Below are positions 3,250-60,562 of a stretch of 64,000 nucleotides of DNA, piece by piece. Made by a program: the position numbers and the translations under genes. Within the stretch, counting starts at the first letter, position 1; every line of letters begins with the position of its first letter. This DNA comes from an uncultured Hyphomicrobiales bacterium. GTDB taxonomy: Bacteria > Pseudomonadota > Alphaproteobacteria > Rhizobiales > Beijerinckiaceae. The DNA is taken from positions 1 through 64,000 of the forward strand of contig CAIZEI010000091.1 of the NCBI GenBank assembly GCA_903931945.1. Reading direction: 5' to 3'. The notes under the pieces were generated by a model. The model had not been told where the DNA came from, ran no database searches, and worked only from the letters and a program-made list of their open reading frames with translations.

Positions 3250-3391
3250 CCGGTTCCCCTGCAAGCGATTGCTGCGCCGATGATGTCAGGACTTTACGAC
3301 CTCTGTCAAAATAAATGGAACGCCTTGCCTGACCGCACGAAGCTCCATAGTCTGGCGAACCGATAACATCTGAGTGGGAGGAGGAGCCAGG

Positions 3392-4120
3392 ATGCCGGTT
3401 GCCATTATCACGGGCGGAGCGAGCTGGTTCAGCCGCGAGACCGCGCGACAGCTTCTCGACGAGGGCTGGGACATTGCGCTTGGAGACACGAATCGGCCCG
3501 CACTCGATAACGTGCTGGCTGCGCTGGATGACAACCGTATTTCCGGCGACACGCTCGATGTGACGGATATCGGCGCTGTCAAAACATTTGTGAACGGCGT
3601 GATCGGGAAACACGGGCGGATTGACGCTCTGGTGAATGTCGCAGGCGGCACGAACTATCTCAACATGCCGCGACTGCCATTTCACGAGATGAAACCTGAA
3701 AACTGGGATCTGGTGCTGCGACCAAATCTATACGGGACGTTGAATTGTTGCCACGCCGTCCTGCCGCATATGATTGCGGCCAGCCAGGGTTCCATCGTCA
3801 ATATTTCATCGGGCATGGGCCTGCGCGGGACCGCTGGCATGTCGACCTATTCGGCAGCCAAGGCCGGCATTATCGGCTTTACCCGCGCGCTCTGTCAGGA
3901 AGTCGGCGCCTATCATATTCGCGTCAACTCTATTGCGCCGGGCAGCGCCGAATCGCGCTGGCAGCCGGATTTGCAAAAAGGCGGCGCACGCCTGCCGCCG
4001 ATCGGTTCGCGCACCAGCGCACGCGATGTCGCAAACGCCATCGTCTTTCTCATTTCCGAGAAAGCAAGCCATATTACCGGGGCTTGCCTCGATGTCTCTG
4101 GCGGATCGTCGCTACATTAG
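3392..4120 (+). CDS. SDR-family oxidoreductase with altered Gly motif
   Basis: Short-chain dehydrogenase/reductase of 242 residues. The Rossmann start is IITGGASWFSRETAR (residues 5-19), where the usual TGxxxGxG has Trp and Ser in place of the last two glycines. The rest is orthodox: NVAGG (82-86), catalytic Ser around 139, Tyr153 and Lys157 in STYSAAKAG, and a C-terminal ITGACLDVSGG. GGAGGAG precedes the ATG; a GTG six codons earlier is less likely. It is first in a plus-strand unit with an FMO-type monooxygenase and a PQQ-type dehydrogenase, so it likely handles an alcohol/ketone in the same pathway. Cofactor binding may be unusual. Confidence 0.9.
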   Translation: MPVAIITGGASWFSRETARQLLDEGWDIALGDTNRPALDNVLAALDDNRISGDTLDVTDIGAVKTFVNGVIGKHGRIDALVNVAGGTNYLNMPRLPFHEMKPENWDLVLRPNLYGTLNCCHAVLPHMIAASQGSIVNISSGMGLRGTAGMSTYSAAKAGIIGFTRALCQEVGAYHIRVNSIAPGSAESRWQPDLQKGGARLPPIGSRTSARDVANAIVFLISEKASHITGACLDVSGGSSLH

Positions 4121-4131
4121 GAAGTCAGATA

Positions 4132-5586
4132 ATGGGTGCTGTTAAACTGCATGGCGCTGCGGCTGGACTTGTTGACCTTGAAACAGAAATCCGCCGCGAT
4201 CTTGAAATTCTGGATTATCCCGTCAAGTCGTGGTTGCGGCCATTCAAGCGCGATGATGGCGCGCACGTCTTCGATGTTGTTGTAATTGGCGGCGGACACA
4301 GCGGTCTCTGCGCCGCCTTTGCGCTAAAGCGCGAGAAAATTTTGAATTCAATTGTCCTCGACGAAAATTCTGAAGGCGAAGAAGGTCCGTGGCAAACCTA
4401 CGCCCGGATGCCTGATCTGCGCACCCGAAAATCGGTTACCGGCGCGGAACTTGGTTACGCCAATCTCACCTATCGGGCATATTTTGAAGCGCGCTTTGGC
4501 GAAGAAACCTATCAGGAACTGAAACGTATCACATGCGGCGAATGGACATCCTATCTTTTATGGATGCGGCGTCTGCTGGAATTGCCTGTGCGAAATGGAG
4601 TGCGCGTCGAAGGCATCGAGCCGGAAGGAAACATCTTCCGTCTCAAGACAAACGCCGGCGGCGCGCAAGACTATATTTTGACCCGGCGCGTCATTCTGGC
4701 CTCTGGACCGCTCTCAACTGGCGGCACAAATATTCCAGACTCGATTTCGACGAACCTGCCAAATTCATTCTATGGCCACGTCTATCATTCGGTCGATTTC
4801 GAACGCCTGAAAGACAAAACAATCGTTGTCATCGGCGCAGGCGCATCGGCTTTCGACAATGCAGGCACAGCGCTCGAACAGGGCGCCAAAGCAGTCCATA
4901 TGCTTGTGCGCAGACCGCATATACCCCGCCTCAGTCTCATCCGTTGGGCCGACTGGTCAGGCTTTATGAACACCTATGCCGATCTTGACGATGAACAGAA
5001 ATGGAAACTCGCATCCGAAGTGCAACGCAATCCCTCGCCGCCGCCCATGCGTGCGCTCAACAGGGTCGACAAGCGCGAAAATTTCCATATCCATTTCAAC
5101 TCGCCAATGATTGCAGCAGGGATTGAAGATGGAAAAGCGGTCATTGAAACGCCTGCGGGCAAACATCGCGCGGATTATGTACTGTGCGCGACCGGTTTTG
5201 CTTTCAATCTTGAGCGCGCCCCGCTGTTCCGGCCTTTTTTCAGCGACATCGCCTTGTGGAAGGATCGTTTTGCCGGACCACCCGGAGGATCGGAGAAGTT
5301 CTCGAATTCGCCCTATCTTGGGCGCCACTATGAATTTCTTGAAAAAACGCCGGGCGCCGCGCCCTGGCTGAAACATATTTTCAATTTCACCCAATCGGCA
5401 ACCCTCAGCATGGGGCCGACGGGGCGCGTCAGTGGATTGAAATATGGCGTGCGCCGTTTGATGATCGGTGTTTCAAACAGTTTTGTTCGCGAAGATTTTG
5501 AGCAACATCTCGCGTCCGTGAAACGGTACAACGATTCAGAGCTTGACGGGCATCCGTGGGTGGAAAAGCCGCCGGCAGCGATCTGA
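4132..5586 (+). CDS. FMO-type FAD/NAD(P)H monooxygenase
   Basis: Flavoprotein of 484 residues with two dinucleotide folds: VVVIGGGHSG for FAD (residues 49-58) and IVVIGAGASA for NAD(P)H (231-240). Between them FYGHVYHSVDF (213-223) fits the flavin monooxygenase fingerprint FxGxxxHxxxF. Class B enzymes of this type insert oxygen into ketones (Baeyer-Villiger) or heteroatoms. An N-terminal extension of about 45 residues precedes the FAD fold. The start is the ATG 11 nt after the SDR stop; a much longer frame reaching into the SDR gene is spurious. It overlaps no confirmed gene downstream, the next start being 26 nt away. The substrate is unknown. Confidence 0.88.
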   Translation: MGAVKLHGAAAGLVDLETEIRRDLEILDYPVKSWLRPFKRDDGAHVFDVVVIGGGHSGLCAAFALKREKILNSIVLDENSEGEEGPWQTYARMPDLRTRKSVTGAELGYANLTYRAYFEARFGEETYQELKRITCGEWTSYLLWMRRLLELPVRNGVRVEGIEPEGNIFRLKTNAGGAQDYILTRRVILASGPLSTGGTNIPDSISTNLPNSFYGHVYHSVDFERLKDKTIVVIGAGASAFDNAGTALEQGAKAVHMLVRRPHIPRLSLIRWADWSGFMNTYADLDDEQKWKLASEVQRNPSPPPMRALNRVDKRENFHIHFNSPMIAAGIEDGKAVIETPAGKHRADYVLCATGFAFNLERAPLFRPFFSDIALWKDRFAGPPGGSEKFSNSPYLGRHYEFLEKTPGAAPWLKHIFNFTQSATLSMGPTGRVSGLKYGVRRLMIGVSNSFVREDFEQHLASVKRYNDSELDGHPWVEKPPAAI

Positions 5587-5611: not shown

Positions 5612-7315
5612 ATGAGCACGAAGGCGGGATTCGACTGCGCAACGCTTGGCATTGTCTGTTTTATGGCAGGCAGCCCGGCAAAAGCTGCGGACGTCAGCTT
5701 TGAGCGTCTGCTGCATCCTGAAACCGCAAATTGGCTCACCAACAATGCCGATTACAGTTCGCACCGCTTTTCGACACTGACGACGATCAACGCATCCAAT
5801 ATCGGCAACCTCAGGCCTGTTTTCACGGTGGGGGTTGGCGGCGCTTCGGCCAAGGAAAATCTGGTTGCGACGCCGCTCGTCGATGACGGGTTTTTATATC
5901 TGCCCGACGCCTGGGGCGCTGTCTACAAGATCGATGTGCGCTCGGGCAAACTTGGCCGCATCGTGTGGAAAATGGACCCCGGCCAACAAAAAATCGACCG
6001 CAATCGCGGCGTGGCGCTCTGGGGCAACCTGGTAATTTCCGTCACGAGCAATGATGGACGCGTCATCGCAACAAACCGCGATATCGGCAAGATCGTTTGG
6101 GACAAAAAGTTGAGCGATGAACCTGACCTCACGCTCAACGCCGCCCCTTTGGCGCTCGAAAATACGATCATCGTCGGCGCCTCGGGCGGAGATCAGGGCG
6201 TCCGCGACTGGGTCGCCGCGCTCGACGCGCGCACCGGAAGGGAAATCTGGCGCACCTATTCAGTTCCGGCGCCGGGTGAGCCCGGCAGCGAAACTTGGAA
6301 AGACAAGAATAACGCGTGGCGCACCGGCGGCGGCGCCTTTTATGTCACCGGCTCCTATGATCCTGCGATTAACGTCACTTATTGGGGCGCAGGCAACCCC
6401 ACGCCAAAATATGATTCGTCCTATCGTCCTGGTGACAATCTTTACACCAACTCCGCGCTCGCACTCGACGCTGCGACGGGAGCAATCAGATGGTGGCATC
6501 AGTATACGCCGAATGACACGATGGATTATGACGAGGTCGGCACGCATATTCTTGTCGATGCGACTCTCAATGGCGCGGAGCGGAAGCTTGTCGTTCATGC
6601 CGCGCGCAATGGCTTTGAATATGCTTTCGATCGCCTGAATGGCCAATTTATCAGGGCCACGCAATATGTTCCGGAAGTGACGTGGACAAAGGTGATAGAC
6701 GCGAAAACGGGGCGCCCTGTCGACTACGATCCGTCAAAGGATTTGCAGACCTACGCCAATCCCATTGGCAAGATTTTAAATGGCGAGCGCAGCAGCGTGT
6801 GTCCCGGCGTGCCGGGCGCCGGCAATTTCTGGCCGGCGTCCTATAGTGGACGAACGAAGCTTCTCTACGCGCCTGAGCTTGTCGGTTGCACGCATGTGAC
6901 ACGCGATCAGACGCGTCATGTTCCAGGAAAATTCGACGGCGGCTCGTTCGGCTACGACGCGCGCATGACCAGCGGCGTCATCGCGATGGACCCAGCAACC
7001 GGCGATATCAAAAGCCGGGCGTCGATGGATTATCCCAACACGTCCGGGGTGCTTTCGACCGCGAGCGGGCTCGTGTTTACAGCGCTGCTCGATGGCACAG
7101 TGCTGGCGCTCGACGATACGACGCTTGAGACGTTATGGAGTTTCAACGTCGGGACGGGGATCAATGCGCCGCCGATGACATACTCGGTCGACGGCAAGCA
7201 ATATATCGCTGTCGTCACCGGGCTGACGGGAAATCAGGCCGGCCGTCTCGTCAACACGCCTGAGCTTAACGACATGGCGAAATACACCACCATGCTGTTT
7301 GTTTTCGGGCTCTGA
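5612..7315 (+). CDS. PQQ-dependent dehydrogenase-family quinoprotein
   Basis: Secreted beta-propeller quinoprotein of 567 residues, with a signal peptide ending near Ala24. Family blocks are present: SGGDQGVRDWVAALDA, PGEPGSETWKD, RPGDNLYTNSALALDAATG and DYDEV. The Asp of DYD is the catalytic position, and the second Asp matches the lanthanide-type DxD signature of XoxF and PedH. The vicinal Cys pair found in most alcohol-oxidising relatives is absent, the region reading RNRGVALWGN instead. It should oxidise an alcohol or aldehyde in the periplasm and pass electrons to a cytochrome c such as the convergent gene just downstream. AAGGA precedes the ATG. Confidence 0.9.
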   Translation: MSTKAGFDCATLGIVCFMAGSPAKAADVSFERLLHPETANWLTNNADYSSHRFSTLTTINASNIGNLRPVFTVGVGGASAKENLVATPLVDDGFLYLPDAWGAVYKIDVRSGKLGRIVWKMDPGQQKIDRNRGVALWGNLVISVTSNDGRVIATNRDIGKIVWDKKLSDEPDLTLNAAPLALENTIIVGASGGDQGVRDWVAALDARTGREIWRTYSVPAPGEPGSETWKDKNNAWRTGGGAFYVTGSYDPAINVTYWGAGNPTPKYDSSYRPGDNLYTNSALALDAATGAIRWWHQYTPNDTMDYDEVGTHILVDATLNGAERKLVVHAARNGFEYAFDRLNGQFIRATQYVPEVTWTKVIDAKTGRPVDYDPSKDLQTYANPIGKILNGERSSVCPGVPGAGNFWPASYSGRTKLLYAPELVGCTHVTRDQTRHVPGKFDGGSFGYDARMTSGVIAMDPATGDIKSRASMDYPNTSGVLSTASGLVFTALLDGTVLALDDTTLETLWSFNVGTGINAPPMTYSVDGKQYIAVVTGLTGNQAGRLVNTPELNDMAKYTTMLFVFGL

Positions 7316-7365
7316 CGGCGCATCAGTCGAATTCTGTTTCAGGAACCGCGCACACATGCGGATAT

Positions 7366-7397
7366 CATCGGCGATAGACCAACGCTCATCGCCGATG
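7366..7397. terminator. Hairpin between convergent genes
   Basis: A perfect 10-bp inverted repeat (CATCGGCGAT / ATCGCCGATG) with a 12-nt loop lies in the 93-nt gap between the ends of the quinoprotein and cytochrome genes. Its place suggests a two-way transcription stop, but there is no clean T tract on either side, so factor-independent termination is uncertain. Confidence 0.45.
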
Positions 7398-7408
7398 TTG
7401 TGAATCAC

Positions 7409-7756
7409 TCAATGCAGGATGGTAACATCCCCGGCTTTGGCCGGCCCAGGAACGCTCTTGATATAGGCGTAGATGTCAGCCAGTTGAGACTCGCTGACCA
7501 CCAACGCCGTATAGGGCGGCATGATATCGGCCGGCTTGCGCAGTTGCGCCGCGAACGCATCATAAGGAATTGTATTCGGCGTCAGGCGCGGGCCCGTGCC
7601 ACGCGATCCCTGACCCACGGTGCCATGGCACTGGTAGCAGCCATCAGCCATATACAGGAGTTCGCCATGCTTCGCGTCTCCTGCCGGGGCTGCTGATTGC
7701 GCCAGCGCGGGAGCCGCGCCAAAAGTCAGGACGAGAGAAGCTAAAAGATGTTTCAT
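7409..7756 (-). CDS. Small periplasmic c-type cytochrome
   Basis: Single-haem cytochrome c of 115 residues. The signal peptide covers about residues 1-20 (ends ALAQ). The haem motif is CYQCH at residues about 40-44, and the Met of IMPPYTAL is the likely sixth ligand. GGAGAG before the ATG supports this start rather than a longer one. It lies 10 nt after the stop of the Tat-exported thiamine-diphosphate enzyme and ends the long minus-strand array. Its obvious electron donor is the PQQ-type dehydrogenase encoded convergently 93 nt away. Partner assignment is inferred from position. Confidence 0.92.
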   Translation of the reverse strand: MKHLLASLVLTFGAAPALAQSAAPAGDAKHGELLYMADGCYQCHGTVGQGSRGTGPRLTPNTIPYDAFAAQLRKPADIMPPYTALVVSESQLADIYAYIKSVPGPAKAGDVTILH

Positions 7757-7766
7757 CGAACTCTCC

Positions 7767-9713
7767 TCAACGTCCCTGGGTGACGACATCGACAAGGCAC
7801 GGCTCGCCTTTTTTGACAATTTCGACGGCTTTTTTCAGAATCGGCCCCAACTCCCTGGGGTCTGTAATCGGTCCAAAAGACGCGACGCCAAGGCCTTTGG
7901 CCATCGTTGCATAGTCGATGAATGGGTCGCGCAAAGTGACGCCAATATGGGTTCGGTCGATACCGCGCTGCCGGCGGTTCGCGATACGCTGAATACCCAT
8001 GATCTCCTGATGATAGGCGCGGTTGTTGTGCATCACGTAGAGGATTGGCAACTTGCTGTTCGCAGCCGTCCACAGGACGCCGGGCGAATACATCATGTCG
8101 CCATCCGGATTGATGGAAACCGTGATACGGCCATGTTTCTTGTTGGCTGCGGCAGCGCCCGCGGATGCGGGGGCGCAATAGCCAATGCCAGAACCGCCTG
8201 CGGCGCCGGTGTTGTGGTAGTGCTTGCTCATGTCCCACAGTCGCTGTGGCCATGCGCTCAGAAAGTTGCCGGTGGTCGAGGCGAGCGACCAGTCTTCACT
8301 CCGGATGGCTTCATAAATTTCTGCGCATAGACGCCCCGTCGCGACCGGACTTGCGTCCCAGGCGTAGAGCGCATCGGCCCGCGCCGCAGTCAAAGCTTTG
8401 GCGTGGTCGGAGGCAATCTTTTCGCCGCGCGCTTCAAATTTGGCTTTCATCCCGGGGTCGATCAGTTTGCGCAACGCCTCTGTCAGATACGGGAGCGAGG
8501 CTTCCGAATCCGCCGGAATTGCAAGATCGACCGGCTGGTAACGCATGAAGTCCTGATAATTCGCGTGGTTGAAAAGATCCGCCGAACTGATGCTGATCAA
8601 TTTAGCGTCTTTTTTGATTCGGGAATCCGACCAGCTTTCGATATTGTCGTGAAAACTGTGCGTGGCGTTATAAAAGTCGAGCAGTTCAAGACCCAGTATC
8701 ACGTCCGCCTGCGCGACCAGGCCACGCGAGCGCTCGCTCATGTTGTACTTGTGACGGGTTGGAAAATTCATTCGGCTTCCCATGTCGCAGACAGGAACAT
8801 GGAGCGTTTCAGCAAGCTCGACGAGCCGGTCAATGCCAGCCTGCGTGCGCGTGTTGCGATCCGCAACAATGACCGGGTTTTCGGCATTCACGAGTAGTTT
8901 GGCGACTTCCGCCAAAGCATTCTGGTCTCCTGAAACAGGCGCAATGCGTGACAGTTTTGGTATTTCGAGCTTCGGGTTTTCCGGAACCGGTCCATCCTGC
9001 ATTTCGCTGTCGATAATAATCAACGTGGGCGCCATAGGCGGCGTCATGCCGATCTTGTAGGCCCGCACAGCGGATTCGCCGAAATGGGTCAGGGACGCCG
9101 GACTGTCGTCCCATTTGATAAAGTCCCGAACCAGCGCGCCAGCGTCCTGAACCGAATGCGCCCAGACAGCGTTGCTGCCCCGCTTGGGGGCGTCGACCGT
9201 ATTGCCCGCCATGATGTAAACCGGCACGCGGTCGCACCAGGCGTTGTAGATCGCCATCGAGGCGTGTTGCAGACCGACTGTGCCGTGCGCGAGCACGAGC
9301 ATCGGTTTGCCCTCGATCTTGGCGTAGCCGTGCGCCATGGCTACCGAGGCTTCCTCATGTGTGCATGTGTGCCAGTCAAGCGTAGAATAGTTGATCAGCG
9401 ATTCATGCAATCCGCGAAAGCTCGTGCCAGGATTGGCGGCGATCTGCGTGATGCCGAGGCTTTGAATGACATCGACCATGTAGTCGGAGCCTGCCGTTCC
9501 CTGCAGGATCGGCATTTCAGGCGGCGTCCCGGATTCCATACGGGGATTGGGCGCAGGCGTGACCGGACCGATGGGCCTCGGCGGCCCGTCAGGTTGGCCG
9601 GGCGTTTGAGCCTCAGCGGCCAAAGGCGCGCCAATAACAGCTGCGCCCGCAACGCCAGCCCCACGCAACAATCCACGGCGACTGAGTGCAGGATCCTTTT
9701 TGCCACGCGACAT
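7767..9713 (-). CDS. Tat-exported thiamine-diphosphate-dependent enzyme
   Basis: ThDP enzyme of the acetolactate synthase/benzoylformate decarboxylase superfamily, 648 residues, normally cytosolic. Here residues 1-35 form a twin-arginine signal: SRRGLLRGAG, then a hydrophobic Ala/Val stretch and an AEAQ cleavage region. The ThDP activating Glu is about residue 120 in THEEASVAMAHGYAK. The C-terminal ThDP/Mg motif runs from DGDMMYSP to MHNN with the usual spacing. The start is the ATG preceded by GGGGAGG. It likely folds with cofactor before export. The reaction is unknown: 2-keto acid decarboxylation to an aldehyde is the natural guess, and the neighbouring cytochrome and quinoprotein would oxidise the product. 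Confidence 0.88.
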   Translation of the reverse strand: MSRGKKDPALSRRGLLRGAGVAGAAVIGAPLAAEAQTPGQPDGPPRPIGPVTPAPNPRMESGTPPEMPILQGTAGSDYMVDVIQSLGITQIAANPGTSFRGLHESLINYSTLDWHTCTHEEASVAMAHGYAKIEGKPMLVLAHGTVGLQHASMAIYNAWCDRVPVYIMAGNTVDAPKRGSNAVWAHSVQDAGALVRDFIKWDDSPASLTHFGESAVRAYKIGMTPPMAPTLIIIDSEMQDGPVPENPKLEIPKLSRIAPVSGDQNALAEVAKLLVNAENPVIVADRNTRTQAGIDRLVELAETLHVPVCDMGSRMNFPTRHKYNMSERSRGLVAQADVILGLELLDFYNATHSFHDNIESWSDSRIKKDAKLISISSADLFNHANYQDFMRYQPVDLAIPADSEASLPYLTEALRKLIDPGMKAKFEARGEKIASDHAKALTAARADALYAWDASPVATGRLCAEIYEAIRSEDWSLASTTGNFLSAWPQRLWDMSKHYHNTGAAGGSGIGYCAPASAGAAAANKKHGRITVSINPDGDMMYSPGVLWTAANSKLPILYVMHNNRAYHQEIMGIQRIANRRQRGIDRTHIGVTLRDPFIDYATMAKGLGVASFGPITDPRELGPILKKAVEIVKKGEPCLVDVVTQGR

Positions 9714-10759: not shown

Positions 10760-12127
10760 TCACTCGGCAGGTTGCGACCTGGCGCCGGAAACCGACGCCT
10801 CGCGGCTGACATTCAGGGCGCGCAGGACAAACGTCAAAGCAGCGCAGAGGAAAGCCGAACAGGTCACATAAAGAAAGATCGCCGCCACGCTGAATTTGGC
10901 GGCGATCAGCGCCCCGCCGAGCATGATGCCGAACAGCGAGCCAATACGCCCGGCGCCAAGCGTCCAGCCGATGCCGGTGGAGCGCATATGGGTCGGAAAG
11001 TAGGTTCCTGTCAGCGCATTGATTCCAGGCGTACCGCCCATGGATAAAAATACGCCGTTGAAAACCATCAGCGACAGCAAAGCCCAGACCGGAACCGACG
11101 CGCTGATAAAGGTGAGAGTCAGGATGCAGACGCCACTGATCAAAAACGCTGTCAGCAATACATAAAATCGGTCGAAACGATCCATCAGTCGACCGACGGT
11201 CAGCGCGCCAGCAACCGCGCCGACCTGATACATCGTCAGCGCCAGGATCGATTGACCTTCGGGCAGGCCACCCTGATTGAAGGCAATCGGCAACCAGCTT
11301 GTCAGCAGGAACGTGACGGCAAGCCCCAAAAACGAAATCGCCCAAAGAACCGACGTTCCGGGGGCTCGTCCATTGCGAAACAGTTCCGCAACGGGCTGTC
11401 CTGACGAGCGCTCTTCGGAGGTCGTAAAGGTTGCGACATCAGATATCGTCGCTTCGGGCGCCACCTGCCGAAGCAAATCGGCGACGCGCACGCCGTTCCT
11501 TTCGCGCAATACGAGAAACCGCAGCGATTCCGGCAACAGGAACATCAGCGCGAGCGCGAGAATAACAGGCACGACGCCGCCAACCATGAACGCTGCCTGC
11601 CAGCCGCCAAGACGCAGCAGCCAGGCTGTTGCGAATCCCGCGGCTGCTGCGCCAATCGAAAACCCGACCCACACGCTCGACGTGATAAAGGCCTTCCGCG
11701 ACCTGGGATAAAATTCGACGCCGAGCGCAACTGTGTTGGGCATGGCGCCACCGAGGCCAAGACCTGTCAGAAAGCGTAAAACAATCAGACTCTCCACCGA
11801 CCATGCCCAAGCGGTCGCGAATGACAGCACGCCGAAGGCCAGCGTTGAGGTTACGACGAATGTCTTGCGGCCGAAGCGGTCAGCGAGCGGGCCGCAAACG
11901 AGGCCGCCAATCATCAATCCAACCAGCGCAACCAGAAATACGGGTCGCAGGTCCGCAGGCTGGACATTCATCGCCTTCACGAGCGCAGGGCCAAGATAGC
12001 CGATCACCTGTGTGTCATAGCCATCCATAAACAGAACAGCCATACAAAGGAACAGAATGCGGGTCTGAAAGGCGCCAACTTTGCGCTGATCGATAAAAGC
12101 GGCGACGTCTATTGCGGCATCAGCCAT
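10760..12127 (-). CDS. MFS transporter, aromatic acid:H+ symporter family
   Basis: Twelve-helix major facilitator of 455 residues. The MDGYDTQVIGYLGPAL motif in helix 1 is diagnostic of the AAHS family (PcaK, BenK), whose Asp residues couple proton and aromatic carboxylate uptake. The loop-2 motif GPLADRFGRKTF is also present, and LMDRFDRFYV in the second half is its counterpart. GGGGGG precedes the ATG. Its place among hydrolase, decarboxylase-like and M24-fold genes suggests it imports the growth substrate of this array, likely an aromatic or heteroaromatic carboxylate; the exact solute is not predictable. Confidence 0.92.
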   Translation of the reverse strand: MADAAIDVAAFIDQRKVGAFQTRILFLCMAVLFMDGYDTQVIGYLGPALVKAMNVQPADLRPVFLVALVGLMIGGLVCGPLADRFGRKTFVVTSTLAFGVLSFATAWAWSVESLIVLRFLTGLGLGGAMPNTVALGVEFYPRSRKAFITSSVWVGFSIGAAAAGFATAWLLRLGGWQAAFMVGGVVPVILALALMFLLPESLRFLVLRERNGVRVADLLRQVAPEATISDVATFTTSEERSSGQPVAELFRNGRAPGTSVLWAISFLGLAVTFLLTSWLPIAFNQGGLPEGQSILALTMYQVGAVAGALTVGRLMDRFDRFYVLLTAFLISGVCILTLTFISASVPVWALLSLMVFNGVFLSMGGTPGINALTGTYFPTHMRSTGIGWTLGAGRIGSLFGIMLGGALIAAKFSVAAIFLYVTCSAFLCAALTFVLRALNVSREASVSGARSQPAE

Positions 12128-59420: not shown

Positions 59421-59540
59421 TTTTTCCGATCCAACTGGATCGAAGAATGTCTTTGGCTTCAAACATTTACGCGTTTTCTTGCGGCGCTTGCGAAGCAATC
59501 GTCCGGAGCGAACCGGTCCCCACTTCGTTTGAAAGCGCTC
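59421..59540 (+). repeat. Interspersed repeat, copy B
   Basis: About 120 nt following gph, sharing with the copy after pepA the order GATCCAACTGGATCG, AATGTCT, GCGTTTTCTTG, GCAATCGTCCGGAGCG and GAAAGCGCTC. It fills the gap between gph and the convergent Bug gene. Both copies begin directly after a TAG stop codon. Confidence 0.75.
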
Positions 59541-60562
59541 TACCCCCCCGACCCTCCGATCACCGCCTTGAAACGCTCGACCGCGCGCGGATCGAATTCG
59601 ACGATTCGTTGCGCGATGGATTTGAGCGCGCCGGCGGTCTTCGGCAAAACCTCCTCCTTCAGGGCCGTTGCGTCGGCCAGAAATTGCGGATCGCGCAGCA
59701 TGTCGTCAAACGCGGTTCGCAACGCCGCCGCCCGGTCCGCCGGGACGCCGGGCGGCGCCAGCAAGGGGCGTCCGACTTCGGTTGTCAGCGACATGAATTC
59801 GAAAATCGCGCGCGCTTCGGGCGTCCCCGCGAGATCGACGAGGGTCGGCGTATCCGGCAATTCCGGATCGCGATTCAGGCCGCCCTGCGCCAGCAAGGCC
59901 ACGAAATCCGTCTCGAGCCAGTCCTTGTGTTCAGCCTTCAGTTGCGACCAGGGGAATGCGCCGCGCCCCTGGATTTCGTTGCGCTCCAGCGCGAGATTGA
60001 TTTCGCTGGCGCCCTTGTAGCCGGTCACGATCCTGAACTTCGCGCCGAGCAATCGATTGGCGAGCGCCGGATAGATGTAATTCTGGGATGTGACGCTCGT
60101 CGAGCCGATGGCTATTTCGTGCATCGTTGCGTCCGCCATAACCGCGACGCCCGACGATCGCCGCACAACGAAAACATCCGTTGGCGTAATGGCGCTGCCG
60201 ATAAACGTGAAATTCCGGGCGTCATAGCGCACGCCGCTTTCGCCGATCGCCTGCCCCAGCGCAAACGTCTGCAAGACCTCGCCAAGCACCGATCCATCGT
60301 GCGGCGCGGCGTTGAAAAGGTGGTTTGCGGCGAGGCGGCCCGCTGCGCCGCCCATATTTTCAACAACGATATTGGGCGCGCCCGGAATATGCCGCCCGAG
60401 ATGCCGGGCCATCAGCCGCCCGACCGCGTCGTAGCCTTCGCCAGCAGTGGCCGCGACAATGAGATGGAGCGGGTTTGCGCGGTAAAAATCGGCGACGCTC
60501 TGCGCCTTTGCGCCACCGCAGGAAAGCAACGCCGCCAGCAAGGCGCCCGCGCGCAAGACCAT
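59540..60562 (-). CDS. TctC-like periplasmic binding protein
   Basis: Solute receptor of 340 residues. Signal peptide ends near residue 21 (GGAKAQ). IPGAPNIVVENMGGAAGRLAANHLF, given here by its ends, and LAPPGVPADRAAALRTAF are the family blocks. It closely resembles the protein near 27 kb in the start of the mature part and overall order, so the two are paralogues in the same subfamily. GGGAGG precedes the ATG. No TctA/B genes are near. Ligand unknown. Confidence 0.9.
   Translation of the reverse strand: MVLRAGALLAALLSCGGAKAQSVADFYRANPLHLIVAATAGEGYDAVGRLMARHLGRHIPGAPNIVVENMGGAAGRLAANHLFNAAPHDGSVLGEVLQTFALGQAIGESGVRYDARNFTFIGSAITPTDVFVVRRSSGVAVMADATMHEIAIGSTSVTSQNYIYPALANRLLGAKFRIVTGYKGASEINLALERNEIQGRGAFPWSQLKAEHKDWLETDFVALLAQGGLNRDPELPDTPTLVDLAGTPEARAIFEFMSLTTEVGRPLLAPPGVPADRAAALRTAFDDMLRDPQFLADATALKEEVLPKTAGALKSIAQRIVEFDPRAVERFKAVIGGSGG

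Follow-up and report, generated by a model that had tools for sequence, protein, structure and literature searches.

A two-gene unit of a Tat-type thiamine diphosphate enzyme and a cytochrome c as a candidate periplasmic oxidoreductase

What does a thiamine diphosphate (ThDP) enzyme with a twin-arginine translocation (Tat) signal do beside genes for a cytochrome c and a quinoprotein, and which of these genes belong together? The question is raised by a locus in a 64,000-nucleotide stretch of DNA, referred to here as the window, from an uncultured Hyphomicrobiales bacterium (contig CAIZEI010000091.1 of assembly GCA_903931945.1). An earlier note on this DNA had proposed a periplasmic module of all three genes, in which decarboxylation of a 2-keto acid by the ThDP enzyme would yield an aldehyde, which the quinoprotein would oxidise, with the cytochrome receiving the electrons. 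The three genes were found as follows.

5612 to 7315, plus strand: quinoprotein, pyrroloquinoline quinone (PQQ) alcohol dehydrogenase-like; convergent neighbour, probably outside the unit (family matches, locus comparison)
7409 to 7756, minus strand: monohaem cytochrome c, 115 aa, Sec-type start (PF13442/PF00034, neighbour conservation, alignment A2)
7767 to 9713, minus strand: ThDP-dependent enzyme, 648 aa, Tat signal, family I (Pfam TPP_enzyme N, M and C domains, AlphaFold2 model, alignment A1)

The ThDP and cytochrome genes lie on the same minus strand, the ThDP gene first, with 10 nt between them. The quinoprotein gene lies on the opposite strand and is convergent on both, a point absent from the earlier note, and it therefore appears to belong to a separate transcription unit. 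The conserved unit comprises two genes, ThDP and cytochrome c, not three. We consider it on balance probable that these two genes encode a two-component periplasmic oxidoreductase, in which electrons would pass from the decarboxylated ThDP intermediate straight to a dedicated cytochrome c.

Homologous ThDP loci were collected by a contig scan, and the best 80 of 236 were retained as named loci. Among all loci compared in this analysis, some represent one gene under two names (L093 and L002, L095 and L003, L163 and L009, and others from genome G447). The 80 loci are titled as Alpha-, Beta-, Gamma- and Deltaproteobacteria and Acidobacteria, plus one acidimicrobial bin. Records titled as isolates among the carriers are Burkholderia sp., Paraburkholderia solisilvae, Caulobacter sp. 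S45, Limnohabitans sp. 15K and Sphingomonas koreensis. The Tat type looks rare, since only 2 of 398 genomes in a Pseudomonadota sample matched at E 1e-120, and these were the genome of the window and one non-Tat relative.

The N terminus of the window ThDP protein, MSRGKKDPALSRRGLLRGAGVAGAAVIGAPLAAEA, resembles a Tat signal and contains the following motif.

9666 to 9683, minus strand: twin-arginine motif SRRGLL, residues 11-16 (sequence, homologue conservation)

Tat signals were assigned from motif and conservation, and Sec signals were assigned by eye. The Tat motif was identified in 83 of 88 homologous ThDP frames scoring above 400 bits (82 by a script that required RR and a hydrophobic stretch, and L028 by eye). 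Three of the remaining five frames (L037, L058 and L085) are cut at a contig end, and the other two are low-scoring second copies in L079 and L087, which score 424-427 bits and have no signal. Both arginines are invariant in alignment A1, which comprises 66 rows of Tat-type ThDP proteins, but these rows were selected for presence of the motif. As a predicted export signal, the motif is conserved far beyond chance. The second copies in L079 and L087 stand in a particular order. L087 (9683-15285) contains a Tat-type ThDP gene, a cytochrome c gene, a solute-binding protein gene (PF13416) and a non-Tat ThDP relative, in that order, and the ThDP and cytochrome genes of L079 (9557-15339) are ordered as in L087. 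Perhaps one substrate class is handled in both compartments in these loci.

The partner cytochrome c of 115 aa matches PF13442 (E 9.2e-10) and has a single CYQCH motif and a start that is Sec-like. Two features of the gene are of interest.

7625 to 7639, minus strand: haem-binding motif CYQCH, residues 40-44 (sequence; C40, C43 and H44 invariant in A2)
7520 to 7522, minus strand: Met79 codon, likely axial haem ligand (invariant in A2; role suggested by class I cytochromes c)

Alignment A2 contains 30 of the cytochromes found beside ThDP genes, and G31, C40, C43, H44, G50, R73, M79 and A97 are kept in all 30 rows. Among 87 ThDP frames above 500 bits, taken from the 80 named loci and the genome of the window (the window gene enters twice, as the window and as L001), 79 have the haem motif of a same-family cytochrome on the same strand within 700 nt downstream, mostly at 100-200 nt. 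In 5 further frames the cytochrome is on the opposite strand, with its haem motif 286-1335 nt past the stop. Both the Tat-type signal and the link to an exported cytochrome that the earlier note had claimed were thus borne out, and both are conserved far outside the genome of the window. When the flanking frames of 82 loci were clustered, the cytochrome cluster spanned 80 loci, and the other large clusters (79, 38, 17 and 16 loci) were read as frames overlapping the ThDP or cytochrome genes. No third gene family was found in most of these loci, the next flank cluster being an ATP-binding cassette (ABC) ATPase in 15 of the 82. An annotated copy on a Caballeronia plasmid has the same order, a thiamine pyrophosphate-binding protein and then a c-type cytochrome. 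In addition, ThDP-cytochrome pairs occur in tandem, with two pairs in L053 and three in L070, an alphaproteobacterial contig (9926-17282). Distances in the ThDP and cytochrome trees correlated across 79 pairs (r 0.617; shuffle maximum 0.112), and the nearest neighbour by ThDP protein was among the three nearest by cytochrome in 61 of the 79. The pairs move as pairs; common descent of both genes would yield the same correlation.

The comparison within the genus of the window separates Tat-type proteins from their non-Tat relatives. ThDP matches at E 1e-100 were present in 49 of 51 genomes of the genus, the genome of the window included, and in none of 50 sampled outside it. The full-length matches form groups, one above 900 bits and one of about 390-590 bits. 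The Tat-type set of the genus contains 49 rows including fragments; besides the window gene, 46 frames have a visible downstream flank and two end at a contig edge. In all 46, the haem motif of the cytochrome lies 116-144 nt beyond the stop, and the Tat motif is present in all 45 rows whose N terminus is visible. None of 82 lower-scoring ThDP relatives, 81 from this search and one from the Pseudomonadota sample, has the Tat motif (a few N termini are cut), and none of 80 non-Tat relatives with a visible flank has a downstream cytochrome on the same strand. The genome of the window repeats this pattern: a cytochrome stands beside 4 of 4 Tat-type ThDP genes with a visible flank and beside none of 13 other ThDP genes. 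This count includes short flanks and one cut N terminus, and it excludes a fragment with stops on contig C5. The neighbour genes of the non-Tat relatives were also examined and pointed to no function.

The combination is found a second time in the same superfamily. Further ThDP genes of the genome of the window, on contigs C83 and C54, also encode a start that is Tat or Tat-like. Family II, represented on C83, is 24% identical to the window ThDP protein and begins with MRDLVAQYLSKAISRRGFLDN. In 8 of 8 cases (seven loci of the genus and the betaproteobacterial L072) it has a Tat motif and, directly upstream, a different cytochrome c. A second, downstream cytochrome is present in 5 of the 7 loci of the genus, and a CAKCH motif lies downstream in L072. 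Family III is 36-39% identical to family II, and its start reads ISRRxLTxGL in 8 of 8 members. A mono- or dihaem cytochrome lies downstream in 7 of 7 family III loci with flank, the copy in the genome of the window being cut at a contig end. One family III cytochrome was scanned, that of L202; it scores 66 bits against SorB, the cytochrome (acceptor) subunit of sulfite dehydrogenase, below the cut-off of 93. A tree of 52 proteins made with FastTree gives support of 1.0 to each of families I, II and III and to II and III jointly, and several lineages without signal or cytochrome lie between family I and the joint clade. Because non-Tat lineages split the two Tat-type clades, the combination arose at least two times or was lost repeatedly.

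Several loci around these families have further features. L072 (5323-12156) contains, in order, a Rieske oxygenase (PF00355, PF00848), cytochrome II, ThDP II, ThDP I and cytochrome I. Genes for a molybdopterin enzyme of the sulfite dehydrogenase type and a cytochrome c are found near two Tat-type ThDP loci of the genome of the window, L165 (13035-14916, contig C35) and L169 (3895-5764, contig C83), and the L169 enzyme passes the sulfite_DH_soxC cut-off (474 bits versus 420). A CAGCH cytochrome that resembles the downstream cytochrome of family II occurs in L259 (1018-3299) and L268 (202-3021), the sole exceptions among the non-Tat relatives examined.

The window ThDP protein contains all three ThDP-enzyme domains (PF02776, PF00205 and PF02775). 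These N, M and C domains, together with the Glu, Asp and Asn residues of its cofactor site, place it in the decarboxylase/acetohydroxyacid synthase (AHAS) superfamily of ThDP enzymes. Within that superfamily, none of the 25 ThDP family matches shown reached its curated cut-off; the best was PRK08327, at 212 of 456 bits. The benzoylformate decarboxylase (BFD) model scored 161 bits against a cut-off of 493, and pyruvate oxidase models of the PoxB type matched weakly, at 73 of 742 and 67 of 792 bits. Profile ranking placed benzoylformate decarboxylases, which are free of flavin adenine dinucleotide (FAD), first as the nearest solved relatives. The AlphaFold2 model (mean predicted local distance difference test score, pLDDT, 86.4) matched structures of BFD, glyoxylate carboligase (GCL) and AHAS. 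The following codons mark the predicted active site.

9354 to 9356, minus strand: Glu120, aligned with the BFD Glu that we take to be Glu47, the catalytic ThDP Glu (HMMER alignments to BFD; invariant in A1)
9285 to 9287, minus strand: His143, aligned with the BFD His that is presumably His70, with a catalytic role (HMMER alignments to BFD; invariant in A1)
8103 to 8105, minus strand: Asp537 of DGD, predicted ligand of Mg and the ThDP diphosphate (invariant in A1; aligned with GDG of BFD)
8022 to 8027, minus strand: Asn563-Asn564, predicted Mg/ThDP site (invariant in A1; aligned with NN of BFD)

The quinoprotein, which begins with MSTKAGFDCATLGIVCFMAGSPAKA, belongs to the PQQ beta-propeller proteins by its match to PF01011 (E 1.3e-54). 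It scores 431 bits against TIGR03075 (PQQ alcohol dehydrogenase, methanol/ethanol family), below the cut-off of 480, and its residues 18-540 align with 6zcv, a quinoprotein ethanol dehydrogenase that we take to be PedH. It retains the catalytic Asp and the lanthanide-type Asp positions, has no vicinal Cys-Cys pair and has Asp where the metal-ligand Glu stands. Both Asp positions are typical of lanthanide enzymes, and a Cys-Cys pair is typical of PQQ alcohol dehydrogenases. Among 23 aligned quinoproteins of the genus (a few of them fragments), 18 have Asp at the metal-ligand Glu position and 19 lack the Cys-Cys pair. The genome of the window has 9 matches to the subfamily of this quinoprotein.

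A profile built from 23 quinoprotein sequences of the genus was run over loci L001-L092 and L145-L164, and a quinoprotein stood beside the ThDP gene in only three of the scanned loci: the locus of the window, L014 and L019. Of the 80 named loci, whose flanks are not all long, 78 showed no quinoprotein. In L014 (3056-5266) and L019 (7674-9920), which are acidobacterial (gp6), the ThDP and cytochrome genes are directly preceded, on the strand of the ThDP gene, by a quinoprotein gene from another subfamily, and in that lineage the three-gene unit is possibly real. In L009, whose ThDP protein is the closest (88% identical), the cytochrome is followed by an unrelated frame, and the 1.2 kb to the contig end contain no quinoprotein. 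Quinoprotein orthologues with 71-75% identity are present in four genomes of the genus (G412, G447, G443 and G408), on contigs other than those of the Tat-type ThDP genes. No contig of the same genus outside the genome of the window bears both a full-length Tat-type ThDP gene and a quinoprotein match, in assemblies that are fragmented. Within the genome of the window, the two kinds of gene share only the contig of the window and C35, where they are about 21 kb apart. The quinoprotein was therefore rejected as a conserved third member, being found beside the ThDP gene only in the window, L014 and L019 and being unlinked in genomes of the same genus. The neighbouring quinoprotein is probably outside the ThDP-cytochrome unit. 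The earlier note had looked to a Tat signal in homologues and to a conserved three-gene neighbourhood as its tests; the former was found and the latter was not, so that neither the quinoprotein as a module member nor the proposed order from free aldehyde through quinoprotein to cytochrome is supported. The quinoprotein gene has its own run of genes, listed here.

4132 to 5586, plus strand: monooxygenase-like protein that binds flavin and NAD(P); 25 nt separate its gene from the quinoprotein gene that follows (a member of this run and not of the ThDP unit)
3374 to 4120, plus strand: short-chain dehydrogenase (SDR); 11 nt separate its gene from the monooxygenase-like gene that follows (a member of this run)

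How the two-gene unit would work can be outlined from these results. We infer that the enzyme is exported and flavin-free, that electron transfer is direct, that the outcome is oxidative and that the substrates are perhaps aromatic 2-oxo acids. The ThDP enzyme would fold and load ThDP and Mg in the cytosol, exit via Tat and act in the periplasm. There it would attack a 2-oxo acid (or a related compound, either an alpha-dicarbonyl or an aldehyde) to form a C2-carbanion/enamine, and the usual carbanion should form because the ThDP cofactor residues are invariant. The carbanion would not be protonated to an aldehyde; instead, the Sec-exported cytochrome c would remove two electrons in single steps, and water would then release the acid product from ThDP. 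The reduced cytochrome would pass its electrons to a terminal oxidase, and transporters would import the acid product. The cytochrome is proposed as the oxidant because a dedicated haem c stands beside nearly every Tat-type form and none on the same strand beside the non-Tat relatives examined. Capture of a ThDP carbanion by one-electron oxidants has a precedent in transketolase, which is assayed by ferricyanide reduction (PMC3352088).

A number of observations weigh against this two-component oxidoreductase. The Tat/non-Tat contrast is imperfect, since L259 and L268, which are non-Tat and score about 440 bits, adjoin a cytochrome c of another type, convergent and on the opposite strand. The same-family cytochrome is absent from the available flank in 3 of the 87 frames (L011, L018 and L042). 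The shuffles behind the correlation of tree distances leave shared descent in place, and the Tat motif of family III is the weaker one. In addition, ThDP in this fold is buried at the dimer interface, and the haem would need a path or a docking site. Lastly, H119, E120, H143, H186, D537, N563 and N564 are common to the Tat-type proteins (66 rows) and to non-Tat relatives (14 and 5), so sequence alone proves no oxidative outcome.

In a rival explanation, the enzyme is an ordinary non-oxidative periplasmic decarboxylase or carboligase and the cytochrome shuttles electrons for an unlinked periplasmic dehydrogenase that handles the aldehyde. Its closest solved relatives are indeed non-oxidative benzoylformate decarboxylases, and the His aligned with BFD His70 is kept. 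We regard it as unlikely, however, given that no third family is common to most loci (the next clusters reach at most 15 of 82), that same-strand cytochromes are missing beside the non-Tat relatives and that cytochromes recur beside a second Tat-type clade. A dehydrogenase does adjoin the unit in the window, and the pathway of the earlier note, with a free aldehyde oxidised by the quinoprotein and the cytochrome taking the quinoprotein's electrons, would fit the general use of cytochromes c by periplasmic PQQ enzymes as well as the upstream, same-strand quinoproteins of L014 and L019. It is nevertheless the more improbable of these two: in the window the quinoprotein gene runs on the other strand, none was found in 78 of the 80 loci (where flanks are not all long), the remaining two have one from another subfamily, none lies in the 1.2 kb that adjoin the 88%-identical gene of L009, the quinoprotein is unlinked in genomes of the same genus, and Tat-type ThDP genes retain the cytochrome without a quinoprotein.

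A further possibility overlaps the two-component oxidoreductase and differs from it in substrate only. The pair would oxidise an aldehyde, acyloin or alpha-diketone by the same electron route, with no release of CO2. Benzaldehyde lyase and glyoxylate carboligase belong to this superfamily and are both among the profile matches, and a nearby alcohol-oxidising quinoprotein (window, L014 and L019) would supply aldehydes; profile similarity, on the other hand, is highest to 2-oxo acid decarboxylases, and we give this possibility perhaps one chance in a few. That a miscalled start mimics a Tat signal and that the cytochrome is a random neighbour is scarcely credible. Tat was called by motif only and the genome of the window is in 203 contigs, but the arrangement is conserved in loci of Proteobacteria and Acidobacteria alike and in two clades of ThDP enzymes, and the comparative counts contradict a chance origin.

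The surroundings of the ThDP loci bear on the substrate. Of the 80 named loci, 9 have UbiD-type decarboxylases nearby in their flanks, and some loci are flanked by molybdenum-hydroxylase subunits, TctC receptors, an ABC ATPase of the branched-chain amino acid type or PdxA; the flanks differ. The annotated Caballeronia copy adjoins a Rieske dioxygenase/PdxA aromatic cluster, and in the window a major facilitator superfamily transporter of the aromatic-acid type lies at 10760-12127 (TIGR00895, 324 of 419 bits, below the cut-off). The flanks give hints of aromatic-acid catabolism, which are not decisive. Elsewhere in the window there are two UbiD-type decarboxylase genes (PF01977; 22172-23647 and 25003-26514), three TctC-type solute receptors (PF03401; 1403-2371, 26511-27677 and 32374-33342) and a fourth TctC-type candidate with no Pfam match (59540-60562).

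More tentatively, and with a little less than even confidence, we propose an undescribed class of periplasmic, flavin-free ThDP dehydrogenases, which would pass electrons from a Breslow-type intermediate to a dedicated haem c, would have at least two origins with different cytochromes and would let bacteria oxidise keto acids or aldehydes in the periplasm. To our knowledge, electrons leave ThDP chemistry by way of lipoamide, flavin-quinone or iron-sulphur clusters, all of them cytosolic. If the proposal is true, periplasmic ThDP-cytochrome c coupling would be a new electron exit, the enzyme would be a new kind of Tat cargo, and keto acids could be oxidised without import. The two-gene unit is small and present in isolate-titled records, and it is therefore directly testable. 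No description of exported or periplasmic ThDP enzymes, or of ThDP-cytochrome c coupling, was recognised in open-licence PubMed Central papers, a search that left subscription literature uncovered; nothing bearing on it came from PMC9226611, PMC12502724 or PMC3305326. No fused ThDP-cytochrome proteins were noticed, with no dedicated search made, and the long frames L101, L118, L163 and L211 are upstream extensions. The parts belong to known families, and it is their combination that is undescribed in the open-licence literature searched.

Among known systems, benzoylformate decarboxylase (MdlC/BFD, PDB 1bfd and 4q9d) gives the best sequence, profile and structure matches and shares the fold, the ThDP/Mg residues and the aligned Glu and His. 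However, the window ThDP protein is only about 20% identical to it, falls below the curated cut-off and has a Tat signal and a cytochrome partner, and the segment that holds a second BFD histidine, which we take to be His281, has no clear match. The PQQ alcohol dehydrogenases PedH and XoxF are comparable to the window quinoprotein, which aligns with 6zcv but has no Cys-Cys pair and has Asp in place of the metal-ligand Glu. PoxB, the pyruvate oxidase or pyruvate:quinone oxidoreductase, would likewise send the electrons of a ThDP intermediate into the respiratory chain; it is cytosolic and uses FAD and quinone. Pyruvate:ferredoxin oxidoreductase moves electrons in one-electron steps from its ThDP intermediate to a metal centre, as the window pair may do, but it uses iron-sulphur clusters and coenzyme A, is cytosolic and belongs to a different protein family. 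In architecture the unit is comparable to the sulfite dehydrogenase SorAB, to SoxCD and to similar pairs of a Tat-exported enzyme and a cytochrome c. In SorAB a Tat-exported cofactor enzyme works with a dedicated Sec-exported cytochrome c, and here too the catalytic subunit has a Tat signal, as judged by its motif, and an adjoining gene for a dedicated cytochrome c; the cofactor is molybdenum there and ThDP here.

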